From a virus, in the IMG/VR virus record IMGVR_UViG_3300050821_016912, positions 1-39,203 of that record: a DNA stretch of 39,203 bases. One strand, 5' to 3'. A program made the translations under genes and the position numbers. The notes under the pieces were generated by a model. That model made no database searches. It saw nothing but the letters and a program-made list of their open reading frames with translations, and was not told where the DNA came from. Below are positions 10,169-38,662 of the stretch, one piece after another; positions within the stretch are counted from its first letter, which is position 1; the number at the start of each line of letters is the position of its first letter.

Positions 10169-10579
10169 ATGAATCGTTATCTCACTCAATTTCCACTGAT
10201 GTTCGAGAAAAAAGTGGTCAGCGTTTTTGCCAAGGTCACCTTTGGTGCCTCGGGCGCTCCAACTTTAACCACCACCAGCTCCAAGGGCATTGTCTCGGTC
10301 ACTAGGAATTCGGCTGGCACCTTTACTTTTCTCTTTGGCACCAAAGCCGGCATGCTCGACACTTATGTAAAACTTCTTTGTATCAAGCACGTTTTTGACA
10401 CCTCTGGCACGTCGTCTGCACCCGCATCCCCAAGTGTTTATGTGGCTTTAAACTCGATTGCAACGGTTGGCACCTCGACAATCAAAATTGTGTTTAATGC
10501 CGCCGGCACCGCCACCGATCCCGCCTCGGGCGAGATTGTTTACTTGGAATTTATCCTTGGCGATTCGACTGCACCATGA
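10169..10579 (+). CDS. Beta-rich virion protein, possible capsid accessory
   Basis: 136 residues directly after the capsid terminator with ribosome site AAGAAGG. Ser/Thr/Gly-rich with many alternating strands: VVSVFAKVTFGASGAPTLTT, GTFTFLFGTKAG, then TSTIKIVFNAAGTATDPASG and a last strand EIVYLEFILGD. Composition and place suggest a structural protein such as a capsid decoration or a spike-base protein. No catalytic motif is seen. ATG of the next gene overlaps its stop (ATGA). Confidence 0.6.
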   Translation: MNRYLTQFPLMFEKKVVSVFAKVTFGASGAPTLTTTSSKGIVSVTRNSAGTFTFLFGTKAGMLDTYVKLLCIKHVFDTSGTSSAPASPSVYVALNSIATVGTSTIKIVFNAAGTATDPASGEIVYLEFILGDSTAP

Positions 10580-10830
10580 TGATGCATGACCCAAAAAAAA
10601 CCGTCTCGGTCATCATGTCTAAGATGCAAAAAGACGGCTCCACAAAAGATGCATTGCTCAAACCCGAGGCCTCAACGGACGACACGCTTGATTCCTTTAA
10701 GGCCATTGCAGAAGACATGCTAGCTGCCATCCAAGCTGGATCAGCAAGTGATTTGGCAGCAAGTCTTAAAGCCTGCATGGCCGAGTATGATTCCCAAGAG
10801 GACGCCGCACCCGATCAAGGTGAGGAATAA
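10576..10830 (+). CDS. Small acidic helical protein, 84 aa
   Basis: Starts MMMHDPKKTVSVIMSKMQKD; ATG at 10576 overlaps the previous stop. A helix (DTLDSFKAIAEDMLAAIQAG) is followed by a second (SDLAASLKACMAEYDSQEDA) and an acidic end. This two-helix pattern is common for a small conserved protein next to phage capsid genes, of unknown role. The next gene begins immediately after the stop (TAAGTG). Confidence 0.6.
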   Translation: MMMHDPKKTVSVIMSKMQKDGSTKDALLKPEASTDDTLDSFKAIAEDMLAAIQAGSASDLAASLKACMAEYDSQEDAAPDQGEE

Positions 10831-11748
10831 GTGTCCGCTCCGGGGCTTGTCTCTTTGGCATCGTTGAGACTACAGGCACAGCAAAAGGCCGATATGGTCA
10901 ATTCCCAATTCGTGACGACGAGGGAATGGAATCAATATCTCACCAACTCTTATAAAGAGCTTTATGACCTTTTGATTGCGGCCTACGGCAACGATTACTT
11001 TGTGCAAACCCCGTATTTATTCGCGTCCGATGGTGTGAACAACCAATTTGCTCTGCCATCGGACTTTTATAAAATTCTAGGCCTTGATTTGGTTTTAACC
11101 ACAACGCCTCAAGGCTGTATTTCCTTAAAAAGATTTAATTTTAACGAACGAAACAAGCTCTCTTACCCCGCTGTTCAAACCTATTACGGCTCAAACTTGC
11201 GCTATAGGCTCGCTGGCAATTTTATTTTCTTTGAGCCCACACCGACGACAGGGCAAAACTTTCAATTGTGGTACGTGCCGGAGCCCCAAGATTTACAAAT
11301 CAATTTTGTATCAGCCCTTGCCTCAAGCTCGCCCACTGTGGCGTGCTCAGATACCTCGCTGCTCACGGTTGGGATGCAGTTATCATCCACCACGGGCATT
11401 ACAGCGGGTACTACGATTCAAAGTATTACGACCAATACCAGTATCACGATGTCGGCCAATGCCACGGCAACAGTCTCGCCAGCCCTGATTCAGGCGTGGA
11501 ATGATTCTGTGACCTTTGATGGGATCTCGGGTTGGGAAGAATACGTGATTGTCGATGCTGCGATCAAAGCAATGCTCAAAGAGGAATCCGACGCCTCAGC
11601 CTTGATGGCCCAAAAGCAGGCATTGCTCAAACGCTTGGAGGATATGGCGGCGAACCGCGATGCCAACCAGCCCATCACTGTCTCCGACACTCAAGGGGCT
11701 GATTTTTCCGATGGTTGGGGTTTTGGCGGCGGTTTTAATGGCTACTAA
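10831..11748 (+). CDS. Head-tail connector / adaptor protein
   Basis: 305 residues from GTG. The N-terminus is helical (LRLQAQQKADMVNSQFVTTR, EWNQYLTNSYKELYDLLIAA) and is followed by beta-rich sequence with YLFASDGVNNQFALPSDFYK and FIFFEPTPTTGQNFQLWYVP, the pattern of the adaptor ring (gp11/tail-tubular-A-like) that joins the portal to the nozzle. A Ser/Thr-rich block of about 55 residues near 155-215, with TTGITAGTTIQSITTNTSIT, looks like an inserted beta module. The helical segment EEYVIVDAAIKAMLKEESDA then resumes the adaptor fold. Tail Gly/Phe-rich. Overlaps the next gene by 11 bases. Confidence 0.7.
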   Translation: MSAPGLVSLASLRLQAQQKADMVNSQFVTTREWNQYLTNSYKELYDLLIAAYGNDYFVQTPYLFASDGVNNQFALPSDFYKILGLDLVLTTTPQGCISLKRFNFNERNKLSYPAVQTYYGSNLRYRLAGNFIFFEPTPTTGQNFQLWYVPEPQDLQINFVSALASSSPTVACSDTSLLTVGMQLSSTTGITAGTTIQSITTNTSITMSANATATVSPALIQAWNDSVTFDGISGWEEYVIVDAAIKAMLKEESDASALMAQKQALLKRLEDMAANRDANQPITVSDTQGADFSDGWGFGGGFNGY

Positions 11749-12118
11749 CACCCCCTCTGTCACCATTGCCCAGGTCCAAACCCTCGATAAAGATACAAAC
11801 CAGCTCCAAAGCAATATCGCATCGGCCTTTAATACTTACCAGACAGGTTTAAGCAGCACGATTCAATCCCTTCAGTCGAGTATTTCAGACCTTCAAAGCT
11901 CTAATTTTTCCTCGGGCAAGATTTTAACAAAACAAGCCCTGGCCTCTGGTTCTAATAATATCCCCCATGGCTTAGGCAAAGCCCTCACGGGTTGGGTGAT
12001 TGTGCGCCAAAGGGCCTCGGCCACCTTTTACGACACGCAAGATTCCAACACCATCCCGCAGACCACACTTTTACTCACCTCATCGGCTTCGGTCACGGTG
12101 GATATTTATGTGTTTTAA
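11738..12118 (+). CDS. Small tail/fibre protein with coiled coil and C-terminal beta domain
   Basis: 126 residues from ATG at 11738, inside the end of the adaptor gene. A coiled-coil-like stretch (LDKDTNQLQSNIASAFNTYQ, SSTIQSLQSSISDLQSSN) leads to a compact beta domain: KILTKQALASGSNNIPHGLG, LTGWVIVRQRASATFYDTQD and TLLLTSSASVTVDIYVF. This HGLGKxLxGW...A.x.YD...T.LTSSA.VTV..YVF pattern is common at the C-terminus of phage tail and fibre proteins and probably trimerises. An upstream start at 11660 would only add frame-shadow sequence. Confidence 0.65.
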   Translation: MATNTPSVTIAQVQTLDKDTNQLQSNIASAFNTYQTGLSSTIQSLQSSISDLQSSNFSSGKILTKQALASGSNNIPHGLGKALTGWVIVRQRASATFYDTQDSNTIPQTTLLLTSSASVTVDIYVF

Positions 12119-26120: not shown

Positions 26121-26296
26121 TGACCAAAAAGACGCGTGCCGACGCCCATATAACGATTTCGATCAGGCTGCCTGTAAGCCTCGTGAAAGAGTTAAAGCAA
26201 CTCTCGCTGACACCCGAGCATGAGGGGCGCTATCAGATTTTGATCCGCCATATCCTTTCAGACTACGTCCATAAGCATAAGGCTAAGAAACGTTAA
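26120..26296 (+). CDS. Ribbon-helix-helix (CopG/Arc-type) regulator, 58 aa
   Basis: MTKKTRADAH leads into the ribbon strand HITISIRLP (residues 10-18), then helix A (VSLVKELKQLSL) and helix B (EGRYQILIRHILSDYVHKHK). This is the size and layout of Arc/MetJ-type dimeric DNA-binding proteins. It is the only plus-strand gene in a long minus-strand block and its 3' end overlaps the endolysin gene's 3' end by 14 bases. There is no ribosome site before ATG; the promoter places the transcript start at the ATG. It probably represses its own promoter and the divergent mini-gene operon through the two 16-mers. DNA targets are inferred. Confidence 0.78.
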   Translation: MTKKTRADAHITISIRLPVSLVKELKQLSLTPEHEGRYQILIRHILSDYVHKHKAKKR

Positions 26297-26834
26297 TCAG
26301 TGTCAGCATGCGATCGGCACGATTCAGCCAACCTTTTAAAAATTCAGCCTTGTTGGCATCATGGAACACGATGTCACGGTATGAATCTTTCATTTGGTTC
26401 ACCAGTGCCTCGATAAACACGCGAGGATCAACGCTGTTTAATTTTAATAGCGTTTGAGGACCAAGCATGCCGTCAACTTTTAAAGCAGCGAGCGGCGCGT
26501 TTTTGTCCAAACAAACGGCATTGAGTATTTGTTGTGTAAGTCGCGCTGCAATAGAGGGCCCCCTGTTGACGCCGGTATCAAACACGCAAGTTGCCACAGG
26601 CTGGCTCTTGATTGAGCCGCCCAAAATCGATTGCCAGTAGCCGAGAAAATAAATCGTGCGCACCTCGGCTGGATTAATATTCCGCATGTAGTCTTCCGAG
26701 ATGGGCTTACCCTTAAACAGCATCACAGTGTCTTGGGTGAGGCCGAAGTTGGTGCATGAGCCGGGGGGATCGCCATCGACGAAGCCGCCTTCGTTCACAA
26801 GAGTGTATTTCAGTGCCGTGTCAAAGTCTGCCAT
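26283..26834 (-). CDS. Endolysin, GH108-type N-acetylmuramidase
   Basis: 183 residues. ALKYTLVNEGGFVDGDPPGS at residues 7-26 followed by TNFGLTQ matches the N-terminal catalytic pattern of GH108 lysozymes (H/N-E-G-G-Y/F ... D-P-G-G-x-T-N-x-G-I/L-T), with E15 as the likely catalytic acid. The second half (IYFLGYWQSI, FDTGVNRGPSIAARLTQQIL, VDGMLGPQTLLKLNSV) matches the peptidoglycan-binding part that usually accompanies GH108. It cuts the glycan chain of the murein at lysis. No signal or SAR sequence is visible, so it needs a holin. It lies with replication genes rather than the late operon. Confidence 0.85.
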   Translation of the reverse strand: MADFDTALKYTLVNEGGFVDGDPPGSCTNFGLTQDTVMLFKGKPISEDYMRNINPAEVRTIYFLGYWQSILGGSIKSQPVATCVFDTGVNRGPSIAARLTQQILNAVCLDKNAPLAALKVDGMLGPQTLLKLNSVDPRVFIEALVNQMKDSYRDIVFHDANKAEFLKGWLNRADRMLTLINVS

Positions 26835-32975: not shown

Positions 32976-33422
32976 TTGAAAAAGCGTGAAAAAGGCCGGT
33001 TGGCGCTCAATATTATACGCAGGCGGAAGGAAAAGGGCTTTAAAGATCAGCTCAGCTTTGCTGATGCCATAGGCATTTCGGTGGCGTTAATAAAAAATAT
33101 AGAGCGAGGCAAATCACGAGGTTCGTCGGTAACTCAGAAGATCCTGGCGGATTTTTTTAACTGCACCGTGGATGAATTGTTTGATCCGCTCCAAGAAATA
33201 CCTGCAGAAGTGCTCGAAGAAACTCCAGCCAAGCAGACTGCAGATTCTTTTTCTTTTGTCAGTTCAGTTCTAAAAAGGTTAGCAGATATGCCCCAGGAAA
33301 CGCGAGAAGAGATAATGGTGCGCATATTCGAAGAGCCAGCGGATCGCAAAGCTCAGGGGGTAAAAAACATCGAGGAGCATCAATCGCCGCCCATAAAAAA
33401 AGGGCCCCGAAAGGCCCTTTGA
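32976..33422 (+). CDS. XRE-family repressor (CI-like), 148 aa
   Basis: TTG start; no upstream in-frame ATG and only a weak ribosome site. Residues about 8-65 form an HTH_3 domain: GRLALNIIRRRKEKGFKDQL, SFADAIGISVALIKNIERGK and LADFFNCTVDELFDP. The remaining 80 residues are Glu/Pro-rich (PAEVLEETPAKQTAD) with a short helix (SVLKRLADMPQETREEIMVR), and there is no S24 peptidase domain, so it is not expected to be cleaved by RecA. Divergent from the leftward early operon with an inverted-repeat operator between. It most likely maintains lysogeny. Its last nine codons lie in a terminator hairpin. Confidence 0.8.
   Translation: MKKREKGRLALNIIRRRKEKGFKDQLSFADAIGISVALIKNIERGKSRGSSVTQKILADFFNCTVDELFDPLQEIPAEVLEETPAKQTADSFSFVSSVLKRLADMPQETREEIMVRIFEEPADRKAQGVKNIEEHQSPPIKKGPRKAL
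33399..33420 (-). terminator. Terminator of the secreted enzyme gene, inside the repressor's 3' codons
   Basis: AAAGGGCC and GGCCCTTT form a perfect 8-bp stem around CCGAAA. On the minus strand the stem is followed by a run of seven T, so it should stop leftward transcription from the gene ending at 33432. The hairpin is entirely within the last codons of the repressor (33422 is its last base), so one sequence codes and terminates. Confidence 0.82.
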
Positions 33423-33431
33423 CTATATATG

Positions 33432-35867
33432 TTATTGCCCGTTCACGGCCTTGATCATATTGGCCACAAGCTGGCCCCAAGTGGTCAAAGATGAGCCTGA
33501 TGTCATGCTGAAATCAGTCACGCCATTGGGGTTGTAGAAAACAAAGCCGCCGCCACCAATACCTGCCGATGCCACCTGTCCAATGGCCGATGCGATAGCC
33601 GAGCCAGAGCTTTGGCTGGGATTGGCGTTGGAGCCGCTGCCGTATTCGTTAAAGATCACCGGCACGATGCCATCGGCACTTTGGATTGTCTGTGCTGCAA
33701 GATAGCCCGAATGAGAGGCGGCGCTGCCCTGCAAGCTTTGAAGTGCGCCGCTATCGGTGTAGCAATGCATCCACCAAATGATATTGGTCATTTGGGCATA
33801 ATCAGCCACGATAAAACCCGCGCCATTGCCGACAGTCTGGGGGTTGCCGGCAATACCTGCCTCAAGATCAATGATGTTGGTGTTACCGGTGGCCCGAATC
33901 GCGTTGTAAAGCGCCAGCTCGTAAGTCGAAATGGCAGCAATAGCGCTCGGGTTGTAGGTGCCGTCGGCGCTATTTAACTCATTGAGCGAGCCAAGCCACA
34001 CGTATGGATTGCCTTTAAAAGCCGTGGCCATACTCGACCAGAACGCCAAGTTTTGTTGCAAACTCGTGCCAGTCGGCGGACCGTCTAACACCTGCGACAA
34101 ACCCCCGGGGATGTCGACTTCCCAATAGCCGCCATTGCTCGAGTGATCCTCAAACTCAACAACGTAACCGAGCAAATTAATTTGGGCGGCAATCGCTTGA
34201 AGTGATGCGACGGTGGGGTAAGTCCATTGCGTTGTCGAGTGATAGGTCGGATAAACCATGGCGCGCACATAATTCAGGCCAGGGAATAATTTCGGCGCGT
34301 TGGCGACAAACGACGCCACGTCAGCATCGTCGAGGTACAAATTCACGCCCTCAGGTAAAAATGGTTTACCGTTCGGATCTGTCATCCGCCCACCGCTGAT
34401 TTTGAAATTTCCCGTGGGCACAGGCGGCGGCACGGGCGAATTACTCGGCTGAGGTGTCGGCGTAGGGACAGGAACTGGGCTCGGAGATGGACCAACCCAC
34501 TGGCCGCCAGTCCATGAATACCATTGACCACTTGCGGCGTCTTCACCCCAGATAACGCCAGAGACGTACGTCAATCCCGAGGTACCGCTGCCGCCGGCAA
34601 CCGCGCTACCGTTTTCATCAACGACGCCAGCCGAAGTTAGCGTCCATACGTTACCCGATGCGTCAGTTATGCTGCCGCCGCTCGTGGGCGTCAACACGGT
34701 GCTGCCGCCGCTAGCCGATGGAGTGGGCGAGGGTTGAGGGGCGCCGCCGCTTGTTTGACTAAACAACCATTGATATAGCGCGGTGCCGTCGCCGCCGTCG
34801 GCATTCATGCGGCCAAACGTCGTCCAGGGGGAGCCTCCGGGATCGGCAATATAATAAAATTGCGAGCTGCCAGCCCGGATAGCCGCCATACCGCCCGAAT
34901 CATAATTGGATTGCGTCGGATAATTGCTATTTCCCGTGATGTAAGTCCAAAACGGTTGGTCCCAACTGCTTGGGGAGTTATCCGAGGGTGTCGAGATCGC
35001 AAGATAAGGGACATTCACCATGCGCTGAAAGACGCTGGAGTTGGCAATCGAAGGCCTGTAAAGCTGTTCGCTCATGCCCACGGCCGCCGTCCAAATCTTT
35101 TGGCCACCCGCATAGTCTTGGTTGTTGTCGGCCAGGGCTGCAAGATACCCGATCGCCGACAAACTTAAGCCCACGGCGTAAACCCTGGTCGTATCGACGC
35201 TGAAACCCGCCATCATGGTTTTGGCCACGGCCGAGATGGCCTGCTCGTTCCACTCACCGTTTGGCGTGTCCGCATAGCCGCCGCAATTGGCGTTTGGGTT
35301 AGCACCCGAGAGATCCAGGGTCTGATCACACTGCGGTGCTACAATAATGGCCGGGTGCGCGGTCCTAAAAGCCACGGTGTTAAAAGTAAAACCATCACCC
35401 TCTAAAGCCGAGACGAATGTTGCGCCGTCGCGAGGGTAGGATGACCCATTCATTCCCTGATCATTGCCCGTGCCGACAAACATCAGAGGGTAAGAATATT
35501 TTTGGGGGTTATATCCTTGCGGCAATAAATAATTGTATTGCATGCCTTTATATCCAGAGGGGCTATTGGGGAATGCCTCAACTTGGTCCACCACCCATGA
35601 GCCAGCGGTAACTGAGCCCGTGAGAGGTGCAGGGATCGGGATAATGCCAGTCGAAGGCGCGGGGGACGGTGTAGGCGAGACACTTGGTGTAGGGCTTGCA
35701 CTCGGCAAAGGTGAGGCACTCGGCGATGTCGACGGGTGTGGCACAATTTTTAAAGAGACCATATCACCAGGCACAGTCGTCGTTGTGCCGTCGGTGTTTG
35801 TGATGACAGTGTCCGCCAGGGCAAAAAGCCCGAGGAACACGGCCACGGTTAAAATCTTTTTCTTCAC
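33432..35867 (-). CDS. Secreted bifunctional esterase and GH5-type glycoside hydrolase, 811 aa
   Basis: Residues 1-19 are a signal peptide. A Pro/Ser/Thr linker (about 45-80) leads to an alpha/beta-hydrolase (about 88-372) with nucleophile S235 in AVGLSLSAIGYLAAL, like CE1/PHB-depolymerase enzymes. A second PT linker and a small module (390-460, ending SGQWYSWTGGQWVGP) precede another PT linker. The C-terminal domain (488-811) is a GH5-like TIM barrel: ISGGRMTDPNGKPFLPEGVN, YVRAMVYPTYH, acid/base E630 in WLGSLNELNS, H701 in WWMHCYTDSG, nucleophile E741 in VPVIFNEYGSG. It likely de-esterifies and cuts an extracellular polysaccharide. GTG start after AAGGGGGAT. It may be a lysogenic-conversion gene. 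Confidence 0.82.
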   Translation of the reverse strand: MKKKILTVAVFLGLFALADTVITNTDGTTTTVPGDMVSLKIVPHPSTSPSASPLPSASPTPSVSPTPSPAPSTGIIPIPAPLTGSVTAGSWVVDQVEAFPNSPSGYKGMQYNYLLPQGYNPQKYSYPLMFVGTGNDQGMNGSSYPRDGATFVSALEGDGFTFNTVAFRTAHPAIIVAPQCDQTLDLSGANPNANCGGYADTPNGEWNEQAISAVAKTMMAGFSVDTTRVYAVGLSLSAIGYLAALADNNQDYAGGQKIWTAAVGMSEQLYRPSIANSSVFQRMVNVPYLAISTPSDNSPSSWDQPFWTYITGNSNYPTQSNYDSGGMAAIRAGSSQFYYIADPGGSPWTTFGRMNADGGDGTALYQWLFSQTSGGAPQPSPTPSASGGSTVLTPTSGGSITDASGNVWTLTSAGVVDENGSAVAGGSGTSGLTYVSGVIWGEDAASGQWYSWTGGQWVGPSPSPVPVPTPTPQPSNSPVPPPVPTGNFKISGGRMTDPNGKPFLPEGVNLYLDDADVASFVANAPKLFPGLNYVRAMVYPTYHSTTQWTYPTVASLQAIAAQINLLGYVVEFEDHSSNGGYWEVDIPGGLSQVLDGPPTGTSLQQNLAFWSSMATAFKGNPYVWLGSLNELNSADGTYNPSAIAAISTYELALYNAIRATGNTNIIDLEAGIAGNPQTVGNGAGFIVADYAQMTNIIWWMHCYTDSGALQSLQGSAASHSGYLAAQTIQSADGIVPVIFNEYGSGSNANPSQSSGSAIASAIGQVASAGIGGGGFVFYNPNGVTDFSMTSGSSLTTWGQLVANMIKAVNGQ

Positions 35868-35904
35868 TTCAAATCCCCCTTTTTAAGTTTTGGATTTATA
35901 ATTT

Positions 35905-36363
35905 TTATTTAGATTGCTGTTGGGCGAGCATGCCCTCGAAGTCGATGGAATCACTTCCGCACGCCACCGCTAACGCCACAATAAGGCAGGCCCCATGGGA
36001 CATTTGGCATGGGACGCAGATAAGGGTTAAAAGCCTATGGCCAAACAGGCGCTCGATTTCCATTAAAACATCGCACAGGTGCAATTTGTTCCAAGAGGTG
36101 CTCCAACAGGTCTCAAGCTCTTTTTTTATGGGCGTTAGTCTTTGTTTTGCATCGGCCGTGATTTTCAAAGGGGAGTTAAGAGTGCCCACGTTGGTTTGCA
36201 CCACCTCTGAGACGGCCCTTCGCATTTGAAAAGCCCACATGGTGTCGACTTTTAATTCCAAAGCGCCTTGTTTAAATGATAATTTCACGATTGAAACAAC
36301 AATGGCGCCGATACTTGTAAGAGCCGCAGCCAAAAGGACACGTACAATTTCGGCTTCGATCAT
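35905..36363 (-). CDS. Membrane-anchored protein of unknown function, 152 aa
   Basis: One N-terminal span (IVRVLLAAALTSIGAIVVSI), then a soluble region: LKVDTMWAFQMRRAVSEVVQ, TNVGTLNSPLKITADAKQRL, and LHLCDVLMEIERLFGHRLL, with CVPCQMSHGACLIVALAVAC near the end. The MWxFxMRRA...GTLNSPL pattern recurs in an uncharacterised family of membrane-anchored phage and plasmid proteins. Overlaps the next gene upstream by 4 bases and lies 37 bp before the secreted enzyme, probably in one operon. Confidence 0.58.
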   Translation of the reverse strand: MIEAEIVRVLLAAALTSIGAIVVSIVKLSFKQGALELKVDTMWAFQMRRAVSEVVQTNVGTLNSPLKITADAKQRLTPIKKELETCWSTSWNKLHLCDVLMEIERLFGHRLLTLICVPCQMSHGACLIVALAVACGSDSIDFEGMLAQQQSK

Positions 36364-36644
36364 TTCAGCCCACGCTTTCTTTTTAAGTCGTGGATGAATG
36401 TTTGGATTTCAGCCCAGGTGTTAGGCGAGAAGGCCACAAAGTTATCCATTTGAGATAACGCTAAAACCTCTTTTTTACCCCTTGGGTCTTTAATATCAGA
36501 GCATTGGGCGTTTTGGTGGGGGTAATCGATCACACACAAAAAGCCCTCTGGTTTATTTATGTCTTTTTGGGCGCACGCCGCCTCAAAAGCTATCATCAGC
36601 CAAATGATCGGCAGCCTTGGATTTTTCATCAGGTGTTTTGGCAT
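36360..36644 (-). CDS. Exported small protein, 94 aa
   Basis: A basic start (MPKHLMKNPRLP; a second start at MKN is possible) followed by IIWLMIAFEAACAQ, a signal-like span ending in A-A-C, which could be a weak lipobox. The mature part contains EGFLCVIDYPHQNAQCSD and LALSQMDNFVAFSPNTWAEI, ending FIHDLKRKRG. It probably sits in the periplasm, possibly lipid-anchored. A lysis accessory such as a spanin part is conceivable but not established. Confidence 0.52.
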   Translation of the reverse strand: MPKHLMKNPRLPIIWLMIAFEAACAQKDINKPEGFLCVIDYPHQNAQCSDIKDPRGKKEVLALSQMDNFVAFSPNTWAEIQTFIHDLKRKRGLK

Positions 36645-36780
36645 TCTTCAAATCTTTCAAGTCGGTTTTGATCATGCGGCGGGATTCATAATCAGAGAGT
36701 TTGGCCGAGGTCCAAGTGCCAATGCGAATGACAAGCCTATCTAAAAGACCAACCAAAACCTCGGCCAAAAAGTAAGTCAC
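36583..36780 (-). CDS. Small amphipathic protein, 65 aa
   Basis: GTG start overlapping the upstream stop (GTGA). MTYFLAEVLVGLLDRLVIRI is an amphipathic or weakly hydrophobic helix, then TWTSAKLSDYESRRMIKTDL and KDLKNAKTPDEKSKAADHLA, a charged helical part. It may bind the membrane peripherally. The 3' end overlaps the following gene by 62 bases in another frame, so at least one start may lie further in. Function unknown. Confidence 0.5.
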   Translation of the reverse strand: MTYFLAEVLVGLLDRLVIRIGTWTSAKLSDYESRRMIKTDLKDLKNAKTPDEKSKAADHLADDSF

Positions 36781-36950
36781 GGTGAAGTCTGGGCCTGTTG
36801 AGCCTTGTGGGCATCAATCACGGCCTTCGTCCCCTCGGCCAAGGCCAAGACTGCGGCCTTTGCCACAGGATTTGAGATGTGGTTTTCGACCACTTGCGCG
36901 ATTGTCGGCAAAAACGCTTCGATGATGGGCAATACTTTTGAGAAATCCAT
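36777..36950 (-). CDS. Small helical protein, 57 aa
   Basis: MDFSKVLPIIEAFLPTIAQV, then VENHISNPVAKAAVLALAEG and TKAVIDAHKAQQAQTSP: two amphipathic helices without strong membrane span. AAGGGGG lies 9 bases before the ATG. First of four overlapping genes that end at the secreted enzyme. Function unknown. Confidence 0.55.
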   Translation of the reverse strand: MDFSKVLPIIEAFLPTIAQVVENHISNPVAKAAVLALAEGTKAVIDAHKAQQAQTSP

Positions 36951-37095
36951 TTTTAAACCCCCTTTAGGCTCTGACTTAAATATTAGGCCAGGGTTTAAAA
37001 AAATAAAGCTATGATTGGATCATGCCATGGCTGGCGCTTGTCGGCGCGACCTTCAAGGGGGCTTGAGACCTAAGGATTGGTTGAAAGCCCTTTTC
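36951..37095. other. Non-coding stretch before the envelope-type cassette
   Basis: About 145 bp, AT-rich near 36985-37010. It contains ATGATTGGATCAT (37012-37024), a 5-bp inverted repeat followed on the minus strand by a T-rich run, which might be a weak terminator or an operator. No convincing promoter was found. Confidence 0.35.
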
Positions 37096-37281
37096 TCATG
37101 ATGCCTGCTGGTTATCTTGCAACACTTCAAAGGCGCGGTCGACTGCCATCCTGATAGCCTCACGCAACAAAACGGCGACTTCGACTTTCATATATTTAAG
37201 CTTTTCTAAATCGTCTTTTAGCGCAGCATCGATCTTTAAATTGATTTGCTCGGTGAAGACGGCACGCATGGGGAGTTTCAT
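37096..37281 (-). CDS. Second ribbon-helix-helix-like protein, 61 aa
   Basis: After MKLPMRAVFTEQ the ribbon strand INLKIDAALKDDLEKLK and helix EVAVLLREAIRMAVDRAFEV match the CopG/Arc layout (strand-helix-helix). There is no ribosome site before the ATG. A perfect palindrome lies upstream at 37318-37334. It is therefore probably a DNA-binding regulator acting at the junction between the leftward cassette and the late operon starting at 37404. Confidence 0.62.
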   Translation of the reverse strand: MKLPMRAVFTEQINLKIDAALKDDLEKLKYMKVEVAVLLREAIRMAVDRAFEVLQDNQQAS

Positions 37282-37403: not shown

Positions 37404-37631
37404 ATGGCTGCCGTCGTCACGAAAATCTTAATTTTATCCACGGCTGTTATATGGATTGGCTGGGATGTTTATGCCTATATCGCGTATGGGAATGCGGCCA
37501 CCGAATCAGCGACACTCTTTAGATGGGCCTACTACGCGCCGGGGGTGAGCTTTTTGGGCGGTATGCTCGCAGGCCACCTGTTTTTTCCCCAGACCCAAGT
37601 GATTGATGAAATAGCTGGGGCTAAAAAATGA
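37404..37631 (+). CDS. Two-span small membrane protein, 75 aa
   Basis: MAAVVTKILILSTAVIWIGW is the first span; VYAYIAYGNAATESATLF faces one side; WAYYAPGVSFLGGMLAGHLF is the second span, ending FFPQTQVIDEIAGAKK. The W-D-x-Y ... A-T-x-S ... G-H-L-F pattern is that of a small conserved phage membrane protein of unknown role. A holin role is possible. Ribosome site GAGG precedes ATG; the stop overlaps the glycosyltransferase start. Confidence 0.62.
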   Translation: MAAVVTKILILSTAVIWIGWDVYAYIAYGNAATESATLFRWAYYAPGVSFLGGMLAGHLFFPQTQVIDEIAGAKK

Positions 37632-38662
37632 CCCACAACAATTATTGCGTGGTCCTTTGTTACAAAAGCTATTCCAACCTGCCTGGAATTTCGCATATTG
37701 GCCTTGGTGTTACAGCCATCAACACGGCCAAATACTTAAGGTCCCACGGGATCAAAGCCTTGGTCTTGCCAGTAGTGAATACTGCGGATGTGGAAACGTT
37801 TTTAAAAGCTCATCCCGAGATCACTCACCTCAACATGTCAGCTCTTTGGGTGCCAACTGAGACTTTTGGCAAATGGTGCGCGCTTTATCCCCACGTGCAT
37901 TTTTCGGTCACCAGTCACTCCAATGTGGCGTTTTTACAAGTCGAGCATAGGGCTATTTTGCTGATTCGCGATGCGATCAATTTAGAGGAAACGACGACCA
38001 ATTTTAAGCTTTGCGGCAATTCCGACAGATTCATTTCATATATCAAAGCTGCCTATGGCGCGATGGCGACCGAACTGCCAAACCTCTATTTTTTAAACGA
38101 GATTCAATCGGCCCCACGGTATACACCCTGGCGCGGGGGGACCCTAAGAATTGGGATCTTTGGGGCCATGAGACTGCTTAAAAACTTTAACACGGCTGCG
38201 GCTGCGGCTTTGCAGATTTCAAGGGAGCTTAAGGCCCAGACCGAGATTTGGATCAATGGGGGCAGAAAAGATTTTACCGAGGCGACCAACCTTGCCAACT
38301 CAATCAAGAACACTGTTAAAGGCGTCCCACTTGTCACTTTAAAAGAATACAATTGGGCACCTTGGCCCGAATTTCGAAAAACGGTGGGCTCCATGCATTT
38401 ACTCCTGCAACCCAGCCATTCGGAAAGCTTTAACAACGTCACGGCCGACGGCATAAGTGAGTCCGTCCCAAGCGTCGTCAGCAACGCCATCGATTGGGCG
38501 CCGCCGCAATGGCAAGCCAATTGCGATGATGTGAATGATGTAGCCCGCGTGGGGATGGCTTTGCTTCATGACCCAAAGGCCACGGTTGAGGGTTACCAGG
38601 CGCTTCAAAAACACAACCAAATGGCCTTTGCTCTTTGGCTAAAATATCTGGCTACCAAATGA
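37628..38662 (+). CDS. GT4-like glycosyltransferase
   Basis: 344 residues. VLCYKSYSNLPGISHIGLGV at the N-terminus resembles the GT-B acceptor side. The donor side holds LRIGIFGAMRLLKNFNTAAA, EIWINGGRKDF and a conserved stretch LLLQPSHSESFNNVTADGIS with ESVPSVVSNAIDWAPP, the E-S-F/x7-E pattern of GT4 enzymes in which Glu contacts the nucleotide sugar. It overlaps the methyltransferase gene, so its acceptor could be phage DNA, but it could also be a host surface glycan or a virion protein. Coupled through ATGA at both ends. Confidence 0.8.
   Translation: MTHNNYCVVLCYKSYSNLPGISHIGLGVTAINTAKYLRSHGIKALVLPVVNTADVETFLKAHPEITHLNMSALWVPTETFGKWCALYPHVHFSVTSHSNVAFLQVEHRAILLIRDAINLEETTTNFKLCGNSDRFISYIKAAYGAMATELPNLYFLNEIQSAPRYTPWRGGTLRIGIFGAMRLLKNFNTAAAAALQISRELKAQTEIWINGGRKDFTEATNLANSIKNTVKGVPLVTLKEYNWAPWPEFRKTVGSMHLLLQPSHSESFNNVTADGISESVPSVVSNAIDWAPPQWQANCDDVNDVARVGMALLHDPKATVEGYQALQKHNQMAFALWLKYLATK

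Follow-up and report, generated by a model that had tools for sequence, protein, structure and literature searches.

What does a temperate phage gain from a long gene that is placed beside its repressor and apart from its virion genes? The preliminary description of this locus saw a secreted two-enzyme protein, an esterase joined to a glycoside hydrolase family 5 (GH5) domain, which would let the lysogen degrade or remodel an acylated polysaccharide. The window, i.e., the whole stretch of DNA that was analysed, is a complete IMG/VR record of 39,203 bases. Terminase, portal and major head protein genes lie on its plus strand; the minus strand carries those for integrase, exonuclease VIII, DnaD-like and RusA-like proteins and the GH108 endolysin. 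Its head, portal and terminase region (2767-24236) belongs to a group of uncultivated phages; against 50,697 phage records the terminase had remote matches only and the portal had none. A search for the host by homology gave weak or scattered matches for the integrase, RecT-like protein and endolysin. A glycosyltransferase gene matching the GT4-conflict family PF20706 lies at 37628-38662.

An 811-residue modular protein encoded beside the repressor

The gene and its immediate surroundings comprise the following features:

33432-35867, minus strand: ORF with GTG start for the 811-aa modular protein, putatively exported
35875-35882, minus strand: Shine-Dalgarno sequence AAAGGGGG (GGGGG), ~8 nt upstream of the GTG start codon
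35814-35867, minus strand: predicted signal peptide with hydrophobic core, residues 1-18, MKKKILTVAVFLGLFALA
35733-35813, minus strand: mature N-terminal motif DTVITNTDGTTTTVPGDMVSLKIVPH, residues 19-45
33399-33420, minus strand: intrinsic-terminator-like hairpin and T run just after the stop codon, overlapping the 3' end of the repressor gene
32976-33422, plus strand: XRE/HTH repressor-like gene (PHROG transcriptional regulator), convergent with the 811-aa gene
35905-37281, minus strand: five small ORFs (152, 94, 65, 57 and 61 aa), overlapping or closely spaced, upstream of the 811-aa gene

A full-length orthologue, 71% identical over residues 5-809, is encoded by a second phage of 39,027 bases (IMGVR_UViG_3300050821_019647, here G1164, also L090), and these two phages are the only ones in which the full-length gene was found. 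Because of this orthologue and of the purifying selection between the two copies (whole-gene Nei-Gojobori dN/dS ~0.11, a rough value, as dS is near saturation), the ORF is, judged by sequence comparison, a real gene and not a chance reading frame, and its changes are mainly silent. Both copies have a Shine-Dalgarno sequence upstream, that of G1164 being GGGGGGATTT, and in both a terminator-like hairpin lies directly 3' of the stop codon; a sigma-70 scan returned no promoter-like site for the gene. The Sec-type leader MKKKILTVAVFLGLFALA, followed by D, is assigned by hydropathy only; the orthologue also has a leader, yet its sequence differs (28% identical), and the adjoining N-terminal motif is 78% identical. 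The protein is thus probably exported. Some of the five small ORFs upstream have membrane- or lipoprotein-like N-termini, and a search for family matches to them found none.

From its N-terminus the protein consists of signal peptide, N-terminal motif, linker, esterase-like domain, linker, W-rich module, linker and GH5 domain. Several elements of the preliminary description are therefore upheld: a single ORF with a leader, three Pro/Ser/Thr linkers (residues ~46-85, 373-388 and 457-488), and a position beside the repressor and outside the virion genes. The W-rich module, of ~70 residues between the second and third linkers, had been overlooked. Searches with the whole protein, by tblastn in phage and plasmid collections and by scans of viral and genome contigs, returned no matches, and it was domain and alignment queries that retrieved L002 and the Rhodopila proteins described below. 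AlphaFold2 gave a pLDDT of 35 for the whole protein as a single sequence and of 41 for the esterase domain with five rows, so that the fold assignments that follow rest on sequence. A recent foreign origin was rejected on codon usage, which stays inside the range spanned by the phage's remaining long genes, although the GC content of the gene is higher (0.555 vs 0.495).

One likely enzyme and a probable pseudo-esterase

The domains and their key residues are as follows:

33435-34403, minus strand: GH5 catalytic domain, residues 489-811 (PF00150, E 7.8e-14; PDB profile matches 4fk9, 3wsu and 4y7e)
33978-33980, minus strand: E630, predicted acid/base (NEL), conserved in the GH5 rows
33645-33647, minus strand: E741, predicted nucleophile (NEYG), conserved in the GH5 rows
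34752-35612, minus strand: alpha/beta-hydrolase (EstA-like) domain, residues 86-372, predicted to be non-catalytic
35163-35165, minus strand: S235, nucleophile-elbow serine, in GLSLSA instead of GxSxG
34833-34835, minus strand: G345, at the catalytic-His position of four homologues (GGSPWT vs H-x-x-W-D; same in the orthologue)
34500-34703, minus strand: W-rich module, residues 389-456, common to the viral protein L002, GH5 proteins of Rhodopila and a MAG contig end (L011)

The GH5 assignment, which had named E630 and E741, is well supported: Pfam PF00150 spans residues 530-757 at 52.2 bits against a cut-off of 23.5 (56.3 bits for the orthologue), and the two glutamates align with NEP and GE-G of relatives and of 4fk9, so that the family profile and the glutamates after strands 4 and 7 are found together. 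A four-row profile of W-rich module and GH5 domain matched 4fk9 (E 2e-13), 3wsu (5e-13) and 4y7e (6e-12) among solved structures, and the full set of solved beta-mannanases and endoglucanases (these three, 3jug and 2whj) spans E 2e-13 to 6e-7. These relatives are nonetheless remote, the part matched lacks the W-rich module, and the conserved GH5 strand-8 Trp has no clear counterpart (VFY in the window, VWF in G1164). Since the nearest solved relatives are beta-mannanases and endoglucanases, we infer a mannan- or glucan-like substrate. By these comparisons the GH5 domain is sound and is likely the one enzyme in the protein.

The esterase-like domain is a different case. A two-row profile matched the Thermotoga esterase 3doh (E 9.9e-13), and the single sequence reached E 0.041 against PF00756, under the Pfam cut-off; judged from these profiles, the relation to EstA-type alpha/beta hydrolases and PF00756 is real, and this part of the original assignment stands. 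We aligned the catalytic residues of the window protein with those of L002 and of three bacterial carboxylesterases, the canonical homologues L083, L086 and L087. (A 17-row alignment, A5, in which the esterase rows had been matched to the GH5 domain, was left out of the esterase analysis.) Like 3doh and these carboxylesterases, the window domain has the alpha/beta-hydrolase motifs and retains the Ser (S235) and the Asp (D296), but both phage proteins have lost the LHG oxyanion motif together with the catalytic His of the Ser-Asp-His triad, which is Gly in each. At the oxyanion motif the window reads VGTG, against LHG in the three bacterial homologues and LHQ in L002; H171, the single His within residues 86-372, aligns with a non-catalytic position, and GLSLSA and GGSPWT are the same in the orthologue. 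With neither the His nor the oxyanion motif in place, a classical esterase reaction is unlikely. Loss of catalytic residues had been named beforehand as the outcome that would speak against the preliminary description; it is seen here, in the sequence alignment, for the esterase His, and the notion of a two-enzyme protein is not supported, given the loss of a residue that the classical triad requires.

The domain does not appear to be decaying. Between the two phages it is 81% identical, as opposed to 61% for the GH5 domain, and because it is the better conserved of the two it is probably retained as a non-catalytic module, a pseudo-esterase. Its dN/dS is ~0.08, indicative only at a dS of ~2; that of the GH5 domain was not calculable because dS is saturated. 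An esterase-only scan of viral contigs gave no matches. An active hydrolase with an atypical catalytic site, in which S235 and D296 are served by another base, would restore a second enzyme, and the retention of both residues, the identity of GLSLSA and GGSPWTTFGRMNADGG in the two phages and the strong conservation could be read in its favour; with H171 as the sole His, at a non-catalytic position, and the LHG motif changed as well, we regard this as quite improbable.

The same gene in a phage with an unrelated head

The orthologue in G1164 likewise has a leader and the two GH5 glutamates and lacks the esterase His, and is borne by a phage whose virion is P22-like (PF16510, PF11651); by tblastn, the terminase, portal and head genes of the window have no counterpart in G1164. 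Common to both phages are a RecT-like protein (87% identical), an exonuclease (66%), a cro-like protein (74%), a methyltransferase (90% over part) and two tail-region proteins (82% and 80%). This pattern of common recombination, methyltransferase and tail genes with unrelated heads has the appearance of a wholesale virion swap (L131, L132). The position of the GH5 gene differs as well, with respect to the following gene of the window:

26283-26834, minus strand: GH108 endolysin, whose counterpart in G1164 lies 37 bp before the GH5 gene

In G1164 the GH5 gene is the last of a minus-strand cro-exo-int-endolysin series. The repressor-like HTH gene of G1164 is convergent with a gene for a papain-family (C1, PF00112) cysteine protease (L090:617-1423), and the site convergent to the repressor, occupied by the GH5 gene in the window and by the protease in G1164, is possibly a cargo slot.

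Because the same gene is present in a phage with an unrelated head and at another site, it is best read, from these comparisons, as movable cargo that goes with a probable common host, neither with a capsid nor with the repressor region. It is also absent from all 25 records with 41-58% identical terminases, several or many of them fragments, which have the structural module of the window. An accessory gene missing from related phages, as expected of a moron, or lysogenic-conversion gene as originally proposed, is what was found (0/25, with the orthologue elsewhere in G1164).

Related modules in a tail-region protein and beside conjugation genes

The relative that bears most on whether the protein could be part of the particle is L002 (IMGVR_UViG_3300028800_000137), which encodes a 2329-aa FN3-rich tail-region protein (L002:2748-9737) with baseplate genes (phrog_6, DUF2612) immediately upstream. 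The GH5 profile matches this protein twice, and it also has a W-rich module and an esterase in which the His is intact; these modules are 44% and 32% identical to those of the window protein; it differs in its changed module order, its FN3-rich make-up, its place beside baseplate genes and its retained esterase His. In the tree built for GH5, the rows from the three phages cluster, with a weak branch joining L002. By analogy with L002, modules of this kind can be particle-borne. The contrast originally drawn with phage spikes thus keeps its bacterial-style layout and is weakened by a tail-region protein with the same three modules reordered.

Several proteins in the tail region of terminase-related phages have leader-like N-termini (L079:9244-10275, 10272-10955 and 11234-11989; L073:10534-11673; L075:12975-15905), and one of these leader-bearing proteins is collagen-like. 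In this group, therefore, the presence of a leader is not enough to rule out a tail-region protein. A depolymerase on the particle that opens glycan at entry would fit the module set of L002, but a tail spike or depolymerase would be expected to lack a signal peptide and to be encoded in the tail module, and the 811-aa protein has a leader and is convergent with the repressor, outside the virion cluster; moreover no tail-attachment domain is apparent in it, and its gene is found with two unrelated head types. We consider a place on the virion very unlikely.

The bacterial-style layout is borne out by cousins in Rhodopila (Acetobacteraceae), whose genomes encode several proteins each with W-rich module and GH5 domain, either with a leader (L009, L010) or with the GH5 domain first and several W-rich repeats; in these no esterase-like domain was seen, and some sit in conjugation operons. 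The W-rich module itself is unnamed by Pfam and NCBIfam. In a Rhodopila MAG, genes for leader, W-rich module and GH5 domain (L009:6726-8150, L010:7938-9602) directly follow a VirB11-like ATPase gene; the clusters around them include TrbI in both and CagX and TrbL in L009, and in L010 the gene after GH5 encodes a type IV secretion coupling protein, with a TrwC-type relaxase nearby. Conjugation machines thus seem to carry the W-rich/GH5 enzyme too. In samples by taxon, the W-rich and GH5 profile had matches in 0/349 for the phylum that includes the Paraburkholderia genome G008, 1/289 for the class of G005 and 4/200 for the family of G005.

When and how the protein would act

The model that we favour, and hold to be rather more probable than its negation, is that the gene is temperate-phage cargo for a Sec-exported, non-virion protein whose GH5 domain cuts a beta-1,4 glycan and whose other modules probably bind. 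Following Sec export and removal of the signal peptide, the W-rich and His-less esterase-like modules would attach, via flexible linkers, to glycan or cell-surface material, and the GH5 domain would cleave a beta-1,4-linked polysaccharide outside the cytoplasm by a retaining mechanism, with E630 as acid/base and E741 as nucleophile. The benefit would be the opening of, or feeding on, polysaccharide around the infected cell, and could fall in lysogeny, as feeding or a change of the cell surface, or in lytic growth, as clearance of the matrix. Export, glycan binding, substrate and benefit are all inferred.

On timing we lean slightly towards lytic growth, given that the G1164 copy comes right after the endolysin gene within a single series; the position in the window and the terminator allow independent expression. 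A protein that is produced alongside the endolysin, is exported ahead of lysis and clears exopolysaccharide for the escape and spread of progeny would account for the 37-bp spacing behind the GH108 endolysin in G1164, in a same-strand series continuous from cro, for the small membrane- or lipoprotein-like ORFs that precede the gene in the window and for its travelling with two shared tail proteins, which points to one probable host. However, the gene in the window does not adjoin the endolysin gene and the small ORFs are at most candidate holins or spanins, and we see such a helper as a serious contender that falls short of an even chance. Lysogenic conversion, in which the prophage transcribes a secreted enzyme that degrades environmental or the cell's own acylated polysaccharide for the lysogen, draws on the repressor beside the gene in the window, the location outside the virion cluster, the terminator-like hairpin, the signal peptide and the layout of a bacterial modular CAZyme. 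The position beside the repressor, cited originally in its support, holds for the window and carries less weight now that the orthologue ends the exo-int-endolysin series of G1164; the sigma-70 scan gave no promoter-like site, and the deacylase half has no catalytic His. Lysogenic conversion is accordingly possible but doubtful, with lytic-phase expression at least as likely.

A broader reading would unite the temperate phages, the tail-region protein and the Rhodopila conjugation operons in one secreted W-rich/GH5 system that opens extracellular polysaccharide for the passage of DNA or particles between cells, the former esterase of the phage version now serving to bind; this we put forward as unlikely, if conceivable.

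Implications

Viral GH5 cargo is known as a class. Viral GH5 genes have been proposed as auxiliary genes before, and the product of one of them, from an uncultivated permafrost-peat virus of a soil microbe, was shown to be active on beta-1,4-mannans, as an endomannanase (Emerson et al. 2018, PMC6786970). Compared by description only, that enzyme and the 811-aa protein are both virus-encoded GH5 glycanases; the portions of that report drawn on here describe no pseudo-esterase or W-rich module. What sets the present case apart is the exported modular layout, the conserved pseudo-esterase and the transfer between unrelated capsids. One polysaccharide-degrading gene moves between phages that have recombination and tail genes in common and different capsids, and this movement separates a benefit tied to the host from a part of the particle. 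The conserved His-less esterase offers a case of an enzyme domain that seems to have been retained in a non-catalytic capacity. If the protein acts on the host's own matrix, it would bear on the passage of phages and plasmids through exopolysaccharide; if it acts on plant polymers, it would bear on viral contributions to carbon turnover.
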